Source: a candidate division LCP-89 bacterium B3_LCP
GTDB lineage: Bacteria; Electryoneota; B3-LCP
DNA length: 64,000 nucleotides
Assembly: GCA_005223185.1 (NCBI GenBank)
Contig: NJBN01000006.1
Coordinates: 186,001 to 250,000, forward strand
Direction: 5' to 3'
The number at the start of each line of letters is the position of its first letter. Position 1 is the stretch's first letter. The position numbers and the translations under genes are program-made. The notes under the pieces were generated by a model. It was given only the letters and a program-made list of their open reading frames with translations. It had not been told where the DNA came from and did not search any database. Below, one piece after another: positions 54,166 through 61,023 of this stretch.

Positions 54166-56001
54166 ATGGCTAAGAAAATGTTAATGACTTTGCTTGCGGG
54201 AATGATTGTAATTGCAGGGTTATGTCATGCTGACACCCTCCTCGTTCCTAGCCAATACCCAACCATTCAGGCGGGAATTAACGCTTCGAACGATGGGGAT
54301 ACAGTTCTGGTTTCATCCGGGACCTATACAGAAAATATCGATTTTCGGGGTAAGGAAATCGTCGTAAAGAGCGAACAGGGCGCTGATTTCACCGTTATCG
54401 ATGGGGATCAGTACGGGAGCGTGGTGACATTCGAGAGTGGAGAGACTACGAACTCCGTACTGGATGGATTTACAGTGGAGAATGGAATGGGTGGGGGTAG
54501 TTATCCGAATTATAGGGGCGGAGGAATAAATTGCACCAATTCATCCTCTCCAACTATTACGAATAATATCTTTACCAGGAATATATCCCCCACAGCAGGT
54601 GGCGCAATCGCCTGTCTCAACTACTCTGACGCAATCATTACAAACAATATAATTTACGGGAATACCGCCTCCAATGGTGGTGGAATTTACGGCAAGGATT
54701 GCTTCATGACCATCATGAACAATACGATAACTGGGAATAGTGCCAGCAGTTTTGGTGGCGGGATCTATGGTTACTACGCAGGTGCAATAGTCAGTAACAA
54801 TGTCATCGAAGGGAATACTGCTTCTTATAAAGGCGGTGGGATGGCAATCCTCGAAGCAACGCATACCCCCTACCCTATCTGGGAAATCAGTAACAACATA
54901 ATCGCGAATAACTGGGGCCGCACTGCCGGTGGTGGAATATCCATCCAATGCTCCTTCCCTCCCCCAGGTCATAACATCATAAACAATACAATCACCGAGA
55001 ACAGTGCTGATCAGGGTGGTGCGGTCGCCCTCTTTTTAAGTGCTTACCCGGTCATCACAAATTCGATCCTTTGGGACAACAGCGCACCGGAGATATACGA
55101 ATCAACGGGAGGAGGATACGCGACGGTTAATTATAGCAACGTCACAGGTGGTTGGACAGGAACGGGAAATATCGATGACGATCCATTATTCATCTATCCA
55201 GACCAGAGCGACTACCGCCTACAGTGGGGTTCCCCCTGCATCGACAGGGGAGATCCGGTCTCACCTCTGGATCCAGATGGTACTATCTGCGACATGGGCT
55301 ATTCGTTTTACGATCAGAGCATCCCTGTACGCATCTTGATGACTCCGCACGATGTGCCAATAAAAATCCCGGCAAGTGGAAGTAGCTTTAACTATACCAT
55401 CTGGGCTACTAACATAGATCCTGTATCTCAACTGGTCAATCTCTGGTGTGATGCCACACTACCAGATGGGAGTATTTTCGGGCCCGTTTTGGGGCCAGTT
55501 TCGATAACGATGGATTCAGCTCTGACCATCAGCCGTGAGAGAACACAGATCGTTCCAGCAGGGGCGCCGATGGGTAACTACACATATAATGCTTATGCAA
55601 CTGTGGGAGCTGATACTTCATCTGATGTGTTTACCTTCGTTAAGTTAGGATCGGTTGGGTTGGATGGATTAGCGGGATGGTTTAATACGGGGGAAGAGTT
55701 CGGTGAAGTTGGCGGGGGAAGCACCCCCGCTCTACAGGAAGATTTCGCCTTGTTAGGGGCATTTCCGAATCCATTCAATCCCATAACAGTTATCAGTTAC
55801 AAGCTGCAAGATGCAAGTCTTGTAAAACTATCGGTTTATGATATTTCCGGCCGTCTGGTAACAAAACTTGCCAACGGTTGGCGGGATGCGGGTGTGCATG
55901 AGGTGACGTTCGATGCTTCTGGTTTGACATCTGGCATCTATATCTACCGATTAAAATCCGGTGATCATGTAGCATCCGGTAAGATGGTGTTGATGAAATA
56001 G
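54166..56001 (+). CDS. right-handed beta-helix surface protein with T9SS domain
   Basis: 611 aa. Signal peptide MAKKMLMTLLAGMIVIAGLCHA. Residues ~25-365 are a parallel beta-helix: PTIQAGINASNDGDTVLVSSGTY, then repeated NNxI/GNTA..GGGI rungs. The beta linker ends at about 500 and the sorting domain is NPFNPITVISYKL...KMVLMK. It lies 24 bp after the previous gene with AAAGGAG. Its first ~147 bp are almost identical to those of the gene at 57525, as is a ~178-bp stretch near the end. No TGA codon interrupts it. Confidence 0.88.
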   Translation: MAKKMLMTLLAGMIVIAGLCHADTLLVPSQYPTIQAGINASNDGDTVLVSSGTYTENIDFRGKEIVVKSEQGADFTVIDGDQYGSVVTFESGETTNSVLDGFTVENGMGGGSYPNYRGGGINCTNSSSPTITNNIFTRNISPTAGGAIACLNYSDAIITNNIIYGNTASNGGGIYGKDCFMTIMNNTITGNSASSFGGGIYGYYAGAIVSNNVIEGNTASYKGGGMAILEATHTPYPIWEISNNIIANNWGRTAGGGISIQCSFPPPGHNIINNTITENSADQGGAVALFLSAYPVITNSILWDNSAPEIYESTGGGYATVNYSNVTGGWTGTGNIDDDPLFIYPDQSDYRLQWGSPCIDRGDPVSPLDPDGTICDMGYSFYDQSIPVRILMTPHDVPIKIPASGSSFNYTIWATNIDPVSQLVNLWCDATLPDGSIFGPVLGPVSITMDSALTISRERTQIVPAGAPMGNYTYNAYATVGADTSSDVFTFVKLGSVGLDGLAGWFNTGEEFGEVGGGSTPALQEDFALLGAFPNPFNPITVISYKLQDASLVKLSVYDISGRLVTKLANGWRDAGVHEVTFDASGLTSGIYIYRLKSGDHVASGKMVLMK

Positions 56002-56057: not shown

Positions 56058-57500
56058 ATGTTTCAGATCAAATTATCAATTGTGGCTTCTGCATTGTTTG
56101 TAGTTTTAGCAGGGGCAATTTCCTACGCGCAGACGACAATCAGCGGCGTGCAGTCGGGCACGCTGGGACCTGGACAATATCTCGTGGTCGGTGAAGTTAC
56201 CGTTGGCGGCCAAGATACCCTGACCATTATGCCGGGCACTGAGTTTCTGCATAATGGAAACCACCAATGGAAAATTTACGGACTCTTCATCGCCGAAGGC
56301 ATGGAAAATGACAGTATCAGCTTTGTCCGACAGAATCCCGTTGAAAACCATCGATGGGGTGGACTTCGTTTCCAGTCCGGCGCCTCAGCCAACAGCACCA
56401 TCGATTATGTAATAATCGACAACTGCAAGAATGAGTTCAATTTTAATTACGACCTCGGCGGCGGTATTTATACCGATGGTGTTCCGATTACAGTCACCAA
56501 TTCCAGAATTTCGGAATGCGATAATTATTGGGGTGGCGGCGGAGTCTATGCAAGTTCAGCAAATATAATCATCGAAAATTGTATTATAGTGGACTGTGAA
56601 GCTTTCGACGACGGTGACGAAGGCGGTAACGGCGGCGGTATATACCTTTACAACTGCGGCGATGCACAGATTTTAAACAACATAATTGCCCGCAATATCG
56701 CAACAGGAGGTTGAGGCAGCTGTGGAGGCGGCGGGATCCGCTGCGAAAACTCAGTTGCTTTGATATCTCATAACCTGATTTATGACAATATTTCCGTACT
56801 TAACGGTGCTGGAATATTTGCTACTTATTCGTCAACTGTAACGATTATAAATAATACTGTTGTTAATAACGAATGTACCTCAACCTCAACTGAAGCAAAA
56901 GGTGGCGGTATTTGCGTTGGAACTGGAAATTCTTCCTTTTCTGGACAAAACAACATTATTTACTATAATTCATCTTATAATGATCCTGAAATTTACGGAA
57001 CCGTGCAACTTACATATTCATGCGTTTCAACCGGCTTAGCTGGAACCGGCAATATTTCCAATAGTCCGGAGTTCCTCGATTTAATAGGCGGCGATTTGAA
57101 TTTGCATGAAACATCACCCTGTATCGATGCAGGTGATCCGAATAGTCCGCTTGATCCTGATGGAACTACTGCAGATATGGGAGCACTCTTCTATGATCAT
57201 GGTTTAGGTGTCAACAGCGACAATCCGCTAATCCAACCAAGTACTATGCGATTGAGCGCATACCCCAATCCCTTCAATCCTGTTGCGGTCATCAGATACC
57301 AATTACCGGTTATGAGCTACGTATCCCTAATTGTATATGACATTTCCGGTCGATTGGTAACAGAACTTGCCAACGGTTGGCAGGATACGGGGGAGCATGA
57401 AGCGATATTCGACGGATCGGATTTAGCATCCGGTATTTATATTTACAGGCTTTCGTCCGGTGATCAGGCAATATCAGGTAAGACGGTGCTGATGAAATAA
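56058..57500 (+). CDS. beta-helix T9SS protein read through an in-frame TGA at 56712 (possible selenoprotein)
   Basis: If the TGA at 56712-56714 is read through, this is one 480-residue protein: signal peptide (AISYAQ), beta-helix rungs, then NPFNPVAVIRYQL...KTVLMK. ATG 56058 has GAAGGAGA. The stop falls at residue 219, between rungs, and sequence on both sides is coherent beta-helix (RNIATGG-*-GSCGGGGIRCENS). The second half has no start or signal peptide of its own. Read-through as selenocysteine would give Sec-Gly-Ser-Cys. The neighbouring protein at 59458 has the same break in the same 12-mer. A pseudogene or sequencing error is the alternative. Confidence 0.65.
56712..56744 (+). promoter_or_regulatory. 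TGA plus downstream stem-loop, bSECIS-like
   Basis: After TGA (56712-56714), GCAGC (56716-56720) pairs with GCTGC (56740-56744). Bases TGT bulge on the 5' side, GGA (56724-56726) pairs with TCC (56737-56739), and the loop is GGCGGCGGGA, beginning 13 nt after the TGA. The bulged U, short upper stem and G-led loop are like bacterial SECIS hairpins, although the loop is a little close to the UGA. Confidence 0.5.
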
Positions 57501-57524
57501 TAAATATACACAAAGGAGATTACC

Positions 57525-59351
57525 ATGGCTAAGAAAATGTTAATGACTTTGCTTGCGGGAATGATTGTAATTGCAGGGTTATGTCATGCTGACACCCTCC
57601 TCGTTCCCAGCCAATACCCAACCATTCAGGCGGGAATTAACGCTTCGAACGATGGGGATACAGTTCTGGTTTCCCCCGAAACCTATATAGAAAATATCGA
57701 TTTTCGGGGTAAGGAAATCGTCGTAAAGAGCGCATCCGGGCCGGTATCCACCGTCATAGACGGAAACCAGGCTGGAAGAGTGGTAACGTTTGAGAGTGGG
57801 GAGAGTGTGAACGCCGTATTGGAAGGATTTACGGTGATGAACGGTGCGGTAAACGGCAGCGGAGGCGGCATCAGATGTACCAACTCATCCAACCCGACCA
57901 TCGCAAATAACATTATTACGAGGAACTCGTCCTCAGGGTTCAGTACTAAAGGAGGTGGGATCGGTTGCGACGATTACTCCGACCCGATCATTATAAACAA
58001 TACAATTACCATGAATACGGCTAACGACGGAGGTGGAATCGGTTTCGAAGATTGCTTTGTAACCATCACGAATAACACCATCACCAGGAACACCGCCAGC
58101 CACGGCGGCGGGATCTACGGCTACTACGCCGGTGCGCATGTTACTGATAATGTAATCTCAGAGAATTCGGCTTCCAGCTGGGGAGGCGGGTTGGCTGTCC
58201 TCGAAGCAACGCACTATTCTCCGAACCCCATCTGGGAAATCTGTAACAACCTTATCGCGAATAATGATGGTAGCAGCGACGGCGGCGGGTTATCTATCCA
58301 ATGCTCCTGGCCCGACGGCCATAACATCACGAACAACACAATCACCGGGAACACTGCCGACAACGGTGGCGCGATTGCTCTCTGGCTAACAGCAAACCCG
58401 GTTATTACAAATACGATCCTTTGGGGCAACACTGCACCGGAGATATATATCTCTTCGGGAGGAGGAAATCCCACCGTCAATTATAGCAACGTCATGGGCG
58501 GCTGGCCGGGAACAGGAAACATCGATGACGATCCCTTATTCGTCTATCCAGACCAGAGCGATTACCGCTTGCACTGGGGTTCCCCCTGTATCGATACGGG
58601 AGACCCGGTTTCACCTCTGGATCCGGATGCCACCATCTGCGATATGGGAGCATTTTTTTACGACCAGAGTATTCCCGTTCGCATCCTGCTGAATCCGCAC
58701 GAGGCACCCATCGAAATTCCAGCTGGTGGCGGCAGCTTTGACTACACCATCCAGGCGACCTATATTGACCCAATATCCCAAATAATTAGCGCTTGGTGCG
58801 ATGTTACACTTCCCACAGGAAGTATCTATGGTCCAGTTTTAGGACCGGTTTCCATCACGATGGATTCAGCTCAAACCATAAGCCGTGTAAGAACACAGAC
58901 CGTTCCAGCAGGGGCGCCGATGGGTAACTACACATATAATGCTTATGCAACTGTGGGAGCTGATACTTCATCTGATGTGTTTACCTTCGTTAAGTTAGGA
59001 TCGGTTGGATTGGATGGATTAGCGGGATGGTTTAATACGGGGGAAGAGTTCGGTGAAGTTGGCGAGGGAAGCACCCCTGCTCTACAGGAAAATTTCGCCT
59101 TGTTGGGCGCATTTCCGAATCCTTTCAATCCCACAACAGTTATTAGTTTCGATTTGCGAGTTGCGAGTTTGGTAAAGTTCACGGTTTATGACATTTCGGG
59201 ACGAAGGGTTGCTGAATTAGTAGATGGTTGGCGGGATGTTGGGGTGCATGAGGTTACCTGGAATGCGTCAGAAATGGCATCGGGCATTTATGTTTACCGT
59301 CTGACGGCAGGTGAGTTTGCCGCATCTGGCAAGATGGTGTTGATTAAATGA
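57525..59351 (+). CDS. right-handed beta-helix surface protein with T9SS domain
   Basis: 608 aa. Same plan as the gene at 54166: signal peptide, PTIQAGINASNDGDTVLVS, about ten beta-helix rungs, linker, then NPFNPTTVISFDL...KMVLIK. The upstream 24 bp and the first ~147 bp are nearly identical to 54166. The sorting-domain part differs more, so the genes look like a tandem duplicate patched by conversion. It has no internal TGA. Confidence 0.88.
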   Translation: MAKKMLMTLLAGMIVIAGLCHADTLLVPSQYPTIQAGINASNDGDTVLVSPETYIENIDFRGKEIVVKSASGPVSTVIDGNQAGRVVTFESGESVNAVLEGFTVMNGAVNGSGGGIRCTNSSNPTIANNIITRNSSSGFSTKGGGIGCDDYSDPIIINNTITMNTANDGGGIGFEDCFVTITNNTITRNTASHGGGIYGYYAGAHVTDNVISENSASSWGGGLAVLEATHYSPNPIWEICNNLIANNDGSSDGGGLSIQCSWPDGHNITNNTITGNTADNGGAIALWLTANPVITNTILWGNTAPEIYISSGGGNPTVNYSNVMGGWPGTGNIDDDPLFVYPDQSDYRLHWGSPCIDTGDPVSPLDPDATICDMGAFFYDQSIPVRILLNPHEAPIEIPAGGGSFDYTIQATYIDPISQIISAWCDVTLPTGSIYGPVLGPVSITMDSAQTISRVRTQTVPAGAPMGNYTYNAYATVGADTSSDVFTFVKLGSVGLDGLAGWFNTGEEFGEVGEGSTPALQENFALLGAFPNPFNPTTVISFDLRVASLVKFTVYDISGRRVAELVDGWRDVGVHEVTWNASEMASGIYVYRLTAGEFAASGKMVLIK

Positions 59352-59457
59352 TTTAGAGCTTATAAGGCATGTGATCTAAATCAACGATGTTACGCCGATA
59401 CTTGGATAGATTTACGGGGATAATTTGATAAACAACAAAAAGAAAGGAAGAGTTCTT

Positions 59458-61023
59458 ATGAAACGACTTAGTACTGCTGTATGCGTTATTATGCTCCTGG
59501 CAATGGCGGCATACGGCGCTACAATCTTAGTTCCCGATCAGTACCCCACCATACAGGCAGGGATTAATGCTGCCAGTGCGGGAGATACCGTCTTAGTCTC
59601 AGATGGTGACTGGACCGGTCCCGGGAACAGAGGCCTGGACTTCGGTGGACGTGCCATTGTGGTCATGTCCGCAAACGGCCCTGAAAACTGCGTGATCGAC
59701 TGCCAGAGCGGCGACCGCGGATTCTACTTCCGTTCAGGTGAAACCGCTTCATCGGTTTTATACGGATTCACAATCGTGAATGGATATATGACGCAGGGTG
59801 GCGGGATTCACATCGCCAACTCGAGTCCAACCATCGAGCGCTGCATCGTCTTCGATAATGGTGCTTCATACGGTGGCGGATTCTACATCGCCAACAGCAG
59901 CCCGGTTATCGAACACTGCACGATCATCGAGAATTCAGCCACTAACGGTGGAGCTGTCTATTCCACCAACTCCAATCCGGACATCAATAGCTGCGTAGTG
60001 GCGGATAATACCGCCTCTGGTTGAGGCAGCCTCTGCAGTGGGATCTACTGCGTATCAGGCAACCCGACCATTACTTACAATGACATCAGCAATTCCGGTG
60101 GTAACTTCTATGGTGGTGCAACACCTGCAGGAGCCGGGACTATTACCGGTACCAACTACAATGGAGATCCGTGCGATCAGTACAACAATATCTTCTTGGG
60201 TCCGCAATTCCCATACGGTGGTGGCTTTAACGTTAAACCCAGTTCACCTTGTATAGATGCCGGTGACCCAGCCCATCCCAACGATCCTGATGGAACAATC
60301 GCCGACCAAGGAGCTCTTCCGATTGATCAAAACAATCCCACTATGGCGGTTACCATCAATCTAACTCCAGCACAATCAACAATCTATGTACTTCCCGGTG
60401 GTAGTTCCTTCGATTTCTCAATTGCTATCGAGAACGTCACTACCAACACTCAGACCGTGGACGTCTGGACTATGGCGCAGCTTCCTAACGGTGCAATGCG
60501 CGGTCCCATTATTTTACGGGAAGATATTGAATTGCCAGCCGGTATGGTCATGAGCCGCGATTTGAATCAGTATGTCCCAGGGTCAGCGCCCGGTGGTTCA
60601 TACACTTACTTTGGGTTTGTCGGCATCTATCCAGGCGGTGAGGATGACCTGGATGGATTTAACTTCCTCAAATTTGGGGACGGTGATGGCGCCGGTAACG
60701 CCATGCCCGGCTGGTCGTTTGATGGCTGGGATACTGAACCGGTATCATCCGTATTGCCGACAGAAGTAACCCTGTCGTCAGCCTATCCGAATCCCTTCAA
60801 CCCACAGACGACCCTGTCTTTCTCTCTGCCAGAGGCAGGACAGGTTACTCTGATTGTCTATGACGTATCAGGACGCGAGGTTGCCAGACTATACGACGGT
60901 TGGTATGCTGCTGGTGAACATCAGGCAGTATTCAATGGCGGTTATCTTGCCAGCGGTCTTTACATAGCTAAATTGACTTCCGCAAACAGCCAATTGACTC
61001 AGAAGTTGATGTTGGTGAAGTGA
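59458..61023 (+). CDS. beta-helix T9SS protein read through an in-frame TGA at 60022 (possible selenoprotein)
   Basis: With the TGA at 60022-60024 read through this is one 521-residue protein from ATG 59458 (GGAAGAG site; the open frame from 59425 would need a non-ATG start). Signal peptide ends at YGA, the beta-helix begins PTIQAGINAASAGDTVLVSDGDW, and after linker and NPFNPQTTLSFSL it ends KLMLVK. Codon 189 is TGA: NTASG-*-GSLCSGIYCVSGNPTI. Both halves are in one frame and the second lacks its own signal peptide. Sec would sit in Sec-Gly-Ser-Leu-Cys, next to the GIYC cysteine. See the gene at 56058 for the matching case. Confidence 0.65.
60022..60060 (+). promoter_or_regulatory. TGA plus downstream stem-loop, bSECIS-like
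   Basis: GCAGT (60035-60039) and ACTGC (60047-60051) form a perfect 5-bp upper stem with loop GGGATCT (60040-60046), starting 16 nt after the TGA. GCCT (60029-60032) and AGGC (60057-60060) can add a lower stem across an internal loop. A G at loop start and 16-nt distance fit published descriptions of bacterial SECIS elements. Confidence 0.55.

Follow-up and report, generated by a model that had tools for sequence, protein, structure and literature searches.

Bacterial selenoproteins of the UxxC type, of the thioredoxin fold and others, are encoded with an in-frame UGA, a SECIS element directly 3' of it and a cysteine at position +3 from the selenocysteine (Sec, U) (PMC13188914). The two genes described here likewise have an in-frame UGA, a SECIS-type hairpin directly 3' of it and, in one of them, a cysteine at +3, but their products are predicted right-handed beta-helices with a type IX secretion system (T9SS) tail and have no thioredoxin fold. 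Ordinary T9SS type A beta-helix cargo (PF13229 plus TIGR04183) resembles them in fold, signal peptide and sorting domain, and differs in that it is without the inserted U-G-S-(x)-C turn. Envelope selenoproteins have been predicted as well, among them the TonB-dependent receptor FCYxU (NF049945) and the MtrB/PioB-type proteins (PMC13188914). By their names, however, these are outer-membrane receptors or barrels and not T9SS-exported repeat proteins, and their models did not match the proteins studied here. The likeness to the UGSC-containing selenoprotein family NF041046 consists of the four letters UGSC, and neither protein matched that model at E <= 0.01.

An earlier note on this DNA knew of no beta-helix selenoprotein family, and this agrees with the 2026 inventory of prokaryotic selenoproteins (PMC13188914), in which a text search for beta-helix, FG-GAP, VCBS and T9SS found no entry. 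A literature search found no paper joining selenocysteine, selenoprotein and type IX secretion; Haft and Tolstoy 2025 was covered via the table of a later review only. For the genome concerned, LCP-89 B3_LCP (GCA_005223185.1), deep-Sep had listed 4 known and 0 new selenoproteins (PMC12013277, table 2). To pass its filter a candidate needs Cys homologues or a homologue already known to contain Sec (PMC12013277), and this would explain why the genes were missed. The about 14 beta-helix genes and one FG-GAP gene that we found in this genome thus make up a large selenoproteome hidden from Cys-dependent predictors, and they belong to two selenoprotein families whose folds (beta-helix and FG-GAP repeats) and predicted location (T9SS surface export) are without precedent in the literature searched.

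Two T9SS beta-helix genes with an in-frame TGA

The window, the whole stretch of 64,000 nucleotides that was analysed, contains on its plus strand a type A gene at 56058..57500 and a type B gene at 59458..61023, and each is open but for one TGA, as the earlier note had described. In the type A gene the TGA lies at 56712..56714 (+), and reading it as selenocysteine gives a protein of 480 aa with Sec219 and the motif U-G-S-C-GGGGIRC, in the context ATGG-U-GSCGGGGIRC. The type B gene has its TGA at 60022..60024 (+), where the conservation of the family supports the reading as selenocysteine. It would encode 521 aa with Sec189 and the motif U-G-S-L-C-SGIYC, in the context TASG-U-GSLCSGIYC, and it terminates with an ordinary TGA stop. 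The sequences Sec-Gly-Ser-Cys and Sec-Gly-Ser-Leu-Cys followed by GI(R/Y)C, which the earlier note had derived by read-through, are those seen in the two translations. The same note had emphasized a 12-mer shared by the two sites, GGTTGAGGCAGC. It is indeed identical at both, encloses both focal TGAs and has no other exact copy in the window; it is nevertheless less remarkable than it seemed, given that other family members differ around the TGA (ACG-TGA-GGC-ACC, GGC-TGA-GGT-TCG) and that the constant elements are the TGA and the hairpin apex GGATC.

Pfam Beta_helix (PF13229) scored 49.5 and 33.4 bits in the two proteins against a gathering score of 25.9, TIGR04183 scored 38.8 and 40.0 bits against a curated cut-off of 23, and Por_Secre_tail (PF18962) is present in both. 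The T9SS C-terminal sorting domain (PF18962 plus TIGR04183) is found 3' of the TGA, at 57261..57485 (+, residues 402-476) in the type A gene and at 60784..61011 (+, residues 443-518) in the type B gene. Both proteins have a candidate hydrophobic signal peptide, read from the sequence, 5' of the TGA. In the type A gene it spans 56058..56132 (+), where a helix is predicted for residues 2-22, and the homologues have similar hydrophobic N-termini. A structure model gave a confident beta-helix of repeating short strands to about residue 340 (mean pLDDT 83.8 overall), with Sec at a turn between short strands. A fold search of the PDB returned weak matches (best E 0.005), none of them informative about the U turn.

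On either side of the type A gene, at 54166-56001 and 57525-59351, is a close beta-helix T9SS paralogue that does not have the Sec turn; their C-terminal parts are closely similar.

Conservation of the TGA in the family

The host genome (G000; 3,794,239 bases) was searched with a profile around the Sec site, which picked out 12 strong members, each with exactly one in-frame stop that is always TGA. An RNA model added two weaker members, bringing the family to about 14 genes in this genome. The extent of the phenomenon had accordingly been understated in the earlier note, which was right about both genes but did not have the rest of the family, the FG-GAP family or the second Sec system described below. 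Two weak matches of the first covariance model, C18:288959 and C18:292136, are family members; its other weak matches (C6:141596, C12:518973 and others, E 0.02-6) had no supporting frame and were rejected as chance. One of the 12, at G000:C16:54839-55066 (L060), is a 5'-truncated remnant that has kept the TGA and the hairpin and lost the first half of the gene.

At a threshold of E <= 1e-12, the same kind of search over 39 genomes of the phylum gave 46 matches from 8 genera in three families. Forty-five of the 46 contain one TGA and none contains TAA or TAG; the single stop-free match is an ordinary beta-helix without the motif. These counts far exceed chance expectation, and they rule out sequencing error, already judged improbable in the earlier note, as well as random pseudogenisation. 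The type A members follow the pattern U-x-x-C-G-G-x-G-I-R and the type B members the pattern U-x-x-x-C-(S/G)-G-I-(Y/R). Among the 21 full-length type A proteins neither U nor the Cys at +3 ever varies, and a few other members are without the +3 Cys but have the Cys of GI(R/H)C.

Alignment of the TGA with Cys in homologues, which the earlier note had suggested looking for, was not found: Sec is invariant in every member that was recovered. There was no Cys version among the 46 strong homologues of the 39 phylum genomes, and none when the type B patterns, U not included, were scanned over 84,980 species genomes. What that scan returned was either members with U, confined to LCP-89 and close kin, or relatives in which the entire U-G-S-x-C segment is missing. 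Nearly all selenoproteins have Cys homologues (PMC13188914), although such homologues do not define a selenoprotein, and because none was found for this family the classic Cys/Sec test is lost. Constraint on the protein can be seen in the codons. Across the 21 type A genes, divergence at codon positions 1/2/3 was 0.47/0.38/0.66 upstream of the TGA and 0.46/0.39/0.66 downstream, and this match indicates that protein-coding selection of the same kind acts on the downstream half. Beyond the TGA, nearly all of the members listed have a frame that stays open over about 190-570 codons.

A SECIS-type hairpin downstream of the TGA

The type A gene contains the hairpin GCGGCGG-GAU-CCGCUGC at 56728..56744 (+), with 7 bp, a GAU triloop and a calculated energy of -10.6 kcal/mol, and the type B gene contains GCAGUGG-GAU-CUACUGC at 60035..60051 (+), also with a GAU triloop and at -8.4 kcal/mol. 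The loop begins 20 nt after the UGA in the first and 17 nt in the second, and the two spacings hold for types A and B throughout the family. Over 48 distinct sequences the stem positions pair in 97.3% of cases, with five of the seven pairs changed on both sides, and the GGATC apex is invariant (48/48). None of 500 shuffles reached as high a value, and sliding the pairing partner gave far lower values.

The published rule for bacterial SECIS elements asks for a loop of 3-9 nt with G in the first two loop positions and a stem of 4-16 bp, located 16-37 nt after the UGA and with an MFE <= -7.5 (PMC13188914). We built a strict scoring on this rule, with no mismatch allowed. Forty of the 48 family TGAs passed, both window genes included, compared with 1.9% of all plus-strand TGAs in the window and 2 of its 16 ORF-terminal TGAs, a set that contains the focal TGAs, which both pass individually. 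The remaining eight hairpins, including the FG-GAP one, did not reach the -7.5 kcal/mol cut-off. In the published model the second loop base is usually G or U, whereas the family hairpin has A.

Two sets of selenocysteine genes

The genes selA, selB, selC and selD, whose presence the earlier note had proposed to check, are all in the same genome, and the first three are duplicated. SelA is encoded at C7:557622 and C6:6935, SelB at C16:189863 and C18:232578, and tRNA-Sec at C18:55476 and C13:102551, both with anticodon UCA and both over the Rfam cut-off. One tRNA-Sec gene is adjoined by selD, which has a Sec-type TGA of its own (CAGUASK) and a hairpin whose triloop, GGA, is likewise spaced 20 nt from it. 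Two SelA copies occur in each of the eight genomes that have the beta-helix family and in none of the 31 others, two SelB in 7/8 versus 0/31 (p = 5e-7), and two tRNA-Sec in 6/8 versus 1/31 (p = 6e-5), counts that come from related genomes and are not independent. In the SelB, SelA and tRNA-Sec trees one copy groups with family f2 and the other stands apart, nearer the remaining families. The trees thus place two distinct systems in families f1, f7 and f8, the first system only in f2, and the second type only in the rest.

Genomes with several likely functional tRNA-Sec genes have been reported, one of them Photobacterium profundum 3TCK with its two complete operons (PMC5330540, Secmarker). Unlike in those cases, SelA, SelB and tRNA-Sec each fall here in two deep clades that have been inherited over eight genera, alongside a new selenoproteome.

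A second, probably exported family with FG-GAP repeats

An FG-GAP-repeat T9SS protein adjoins the tRNA-Sec gene and selD, and its gene is split by a TGA around a G-U-C motif. Genes of this putative selenoprotein family are at L003 (G000:C18:54762-55568), L279 and L283. Across the phylum 24 homologues were found, each carrying one TGA; 17 of them are in the taxonomic family of the host genome and 7 in family f2, and in relatives they are often in tandem and beside tRNA-Sec and a Sec-type selD. In the f2 genomes they occur with the first system only, and in the host genome the FG-GAP gene is beside the tRNA-Sec of the first system. This distribution suggests that the first system reads the GAU-type SECIS. 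A strict division of labour between the two SelB by the GAU apex was considered and dropped: the selD of this cluster also has its hairpin at 20 nt but with GGA at the apex, and exclusivity is unsupported.

Perhaps each cell has two complete orthogonal Sec systems, of which the C18/C7 type, the one found with f2 and linked to FG-GAP, would be dedicated to a T9SS-exported selenoproteome with an obligatory, never-Cys Sec and a GAU-loop SECIS class of its own, although we regard this as tentative and rather doubtful. Two Sec-decoding systems per cell would provide a natural case for the study of orthogonal SelB/tRNA-Sec pairs.

Reading of the in-frame TGA

Taken together, the sequences make it very probable that both genes encode exported selenoproteins in which UGA is read as Sec by means of the SECIS hairpin. 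The conserved UGA, the Sec machinery, the SECIS-type RNA constraint, the coding constraint on both sides and the sorting domain are the established part of this explanation, from which we infer insertion and export. That the TGA might simply be a stop, the genes being shared pseudogenes or the truncated first half their sole product, is suggested by a standard ORF call, which cuts both genes in two, and by the L060 remnant (C16:55013-55063), a true case of 5' truncation. However, a plain stop is hard to reconcile with long downstream frames that carry the same coding signature as the upstream ones, with an interruption that is always TGA, with a sorting domain located beyond it, or with an RNA-level constraint specific to the TGA site, and we consider it extremely unlikely. 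We give just as little credence to the insertion of another amino acid, whether by genome-wide reassignment of UGA or by near-cognate read-through promoted by the hairpin. Nothing specific favours it, except that a context element would suffice for read-through alone. TGA serves this genome as a regular stop codon, as the earlier note had also held for the rest of the window, and ends 14 of the 42 long ORFs of the window and the type B gene itself; the Sec machinery is complete, with a SelD that has a Sec-type TGA and a hairpin whose loop is likewise 20 nt from it; and the loop G falls within the 16-37 nt of the SelB-type SECIS rule (PMC13188914).

A further alternative accepts Sec at the TGA but takes the hairpin as a by-product of the Gly-Gly-Gly-Ile-Arg-Cys peptide and not as a SECIS. 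The beta-helix family hairpin does fall within this conserved peptide, but the synonymous choice there is fixed, the codon pair GGG-ATC being used at 35/35 GGI sites beside U and at 7/102 of the other GGI sites of these genes (p = 5e-26). The amino acids moreover vary with the RNA, so that GIRL goes with GAG...CTC, GIRH with GTG...CAC and NGIRC with AAC...GTT. A hairpin of this kind, with the GAU core and the spacing unchanged, is also present in the FG-GAP family, where the peptide (PRIVD/PQIVD) is unrelated, and this speaks strongly against deriving it from the Gly-rich motif of the beta-helix. This alternative is thus very unlikely.

Under the preferred reading, with UGA decoded as Sec, the ribosome would meet the in-frame UGA, and the SECIS hairpin, with an apical loop starting 17 or 20 nt downstream, would recruit SelB and Sec-tRNA-Sec, so that Sec would be placed at a turn between two rungs of the right-handed beta-helix. 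Translation would continue to the T9SS C-terminal sorting domain, and the protein may then pass the outer membrane to the surface. Because the signal peptide precedes the UGA and the sorting domain follows it, the T9SS signal is on the read-through form only. Sec insertion would in this way gate surface export, and without selenium there would be only a truncated product with no sorting domain. Surface display may thus be switched by Sec insertion. Judging by the motif, the Sec site most likely serves redox chemistry at the surface, by selenenylsulfide/thiol exchange or electron transfer, or the binding of soft metal(loid)s, because Cys residues are near Sec, in UxxC in type A, in UxxxC in type B and in GI(R/Y)C on the next strand.

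Other T9SS proteins of the genome

An amidohydrolase with a T9SS tail, split by an in-frame TGA (G000:C2:14217-15014, L037/L048; GEPSG-U-LLEMPA), was rejected as a candidate: its homologues are distant and stop-free, and its hairpin is far too near the TGA. This TGA may have arisen by recent mutation or by an error of the assembly, or may mark a selenoprotein that lacks support. Another secreted T9SS-type protein, L045 (G000:C12, TGA at L045:501, minus strand), lies near T9SS genes and has the context ENPAT-U-TNAQRQ, with a strong hairpin that is without the GAU apex. The T9SS sorting domains number at least 150 (150 scored of 338 candidates), an unusually large cargo set for a genome of 3.8 Mb, and from these cargo domains the genome would be expected to encode a T9SS translocon.
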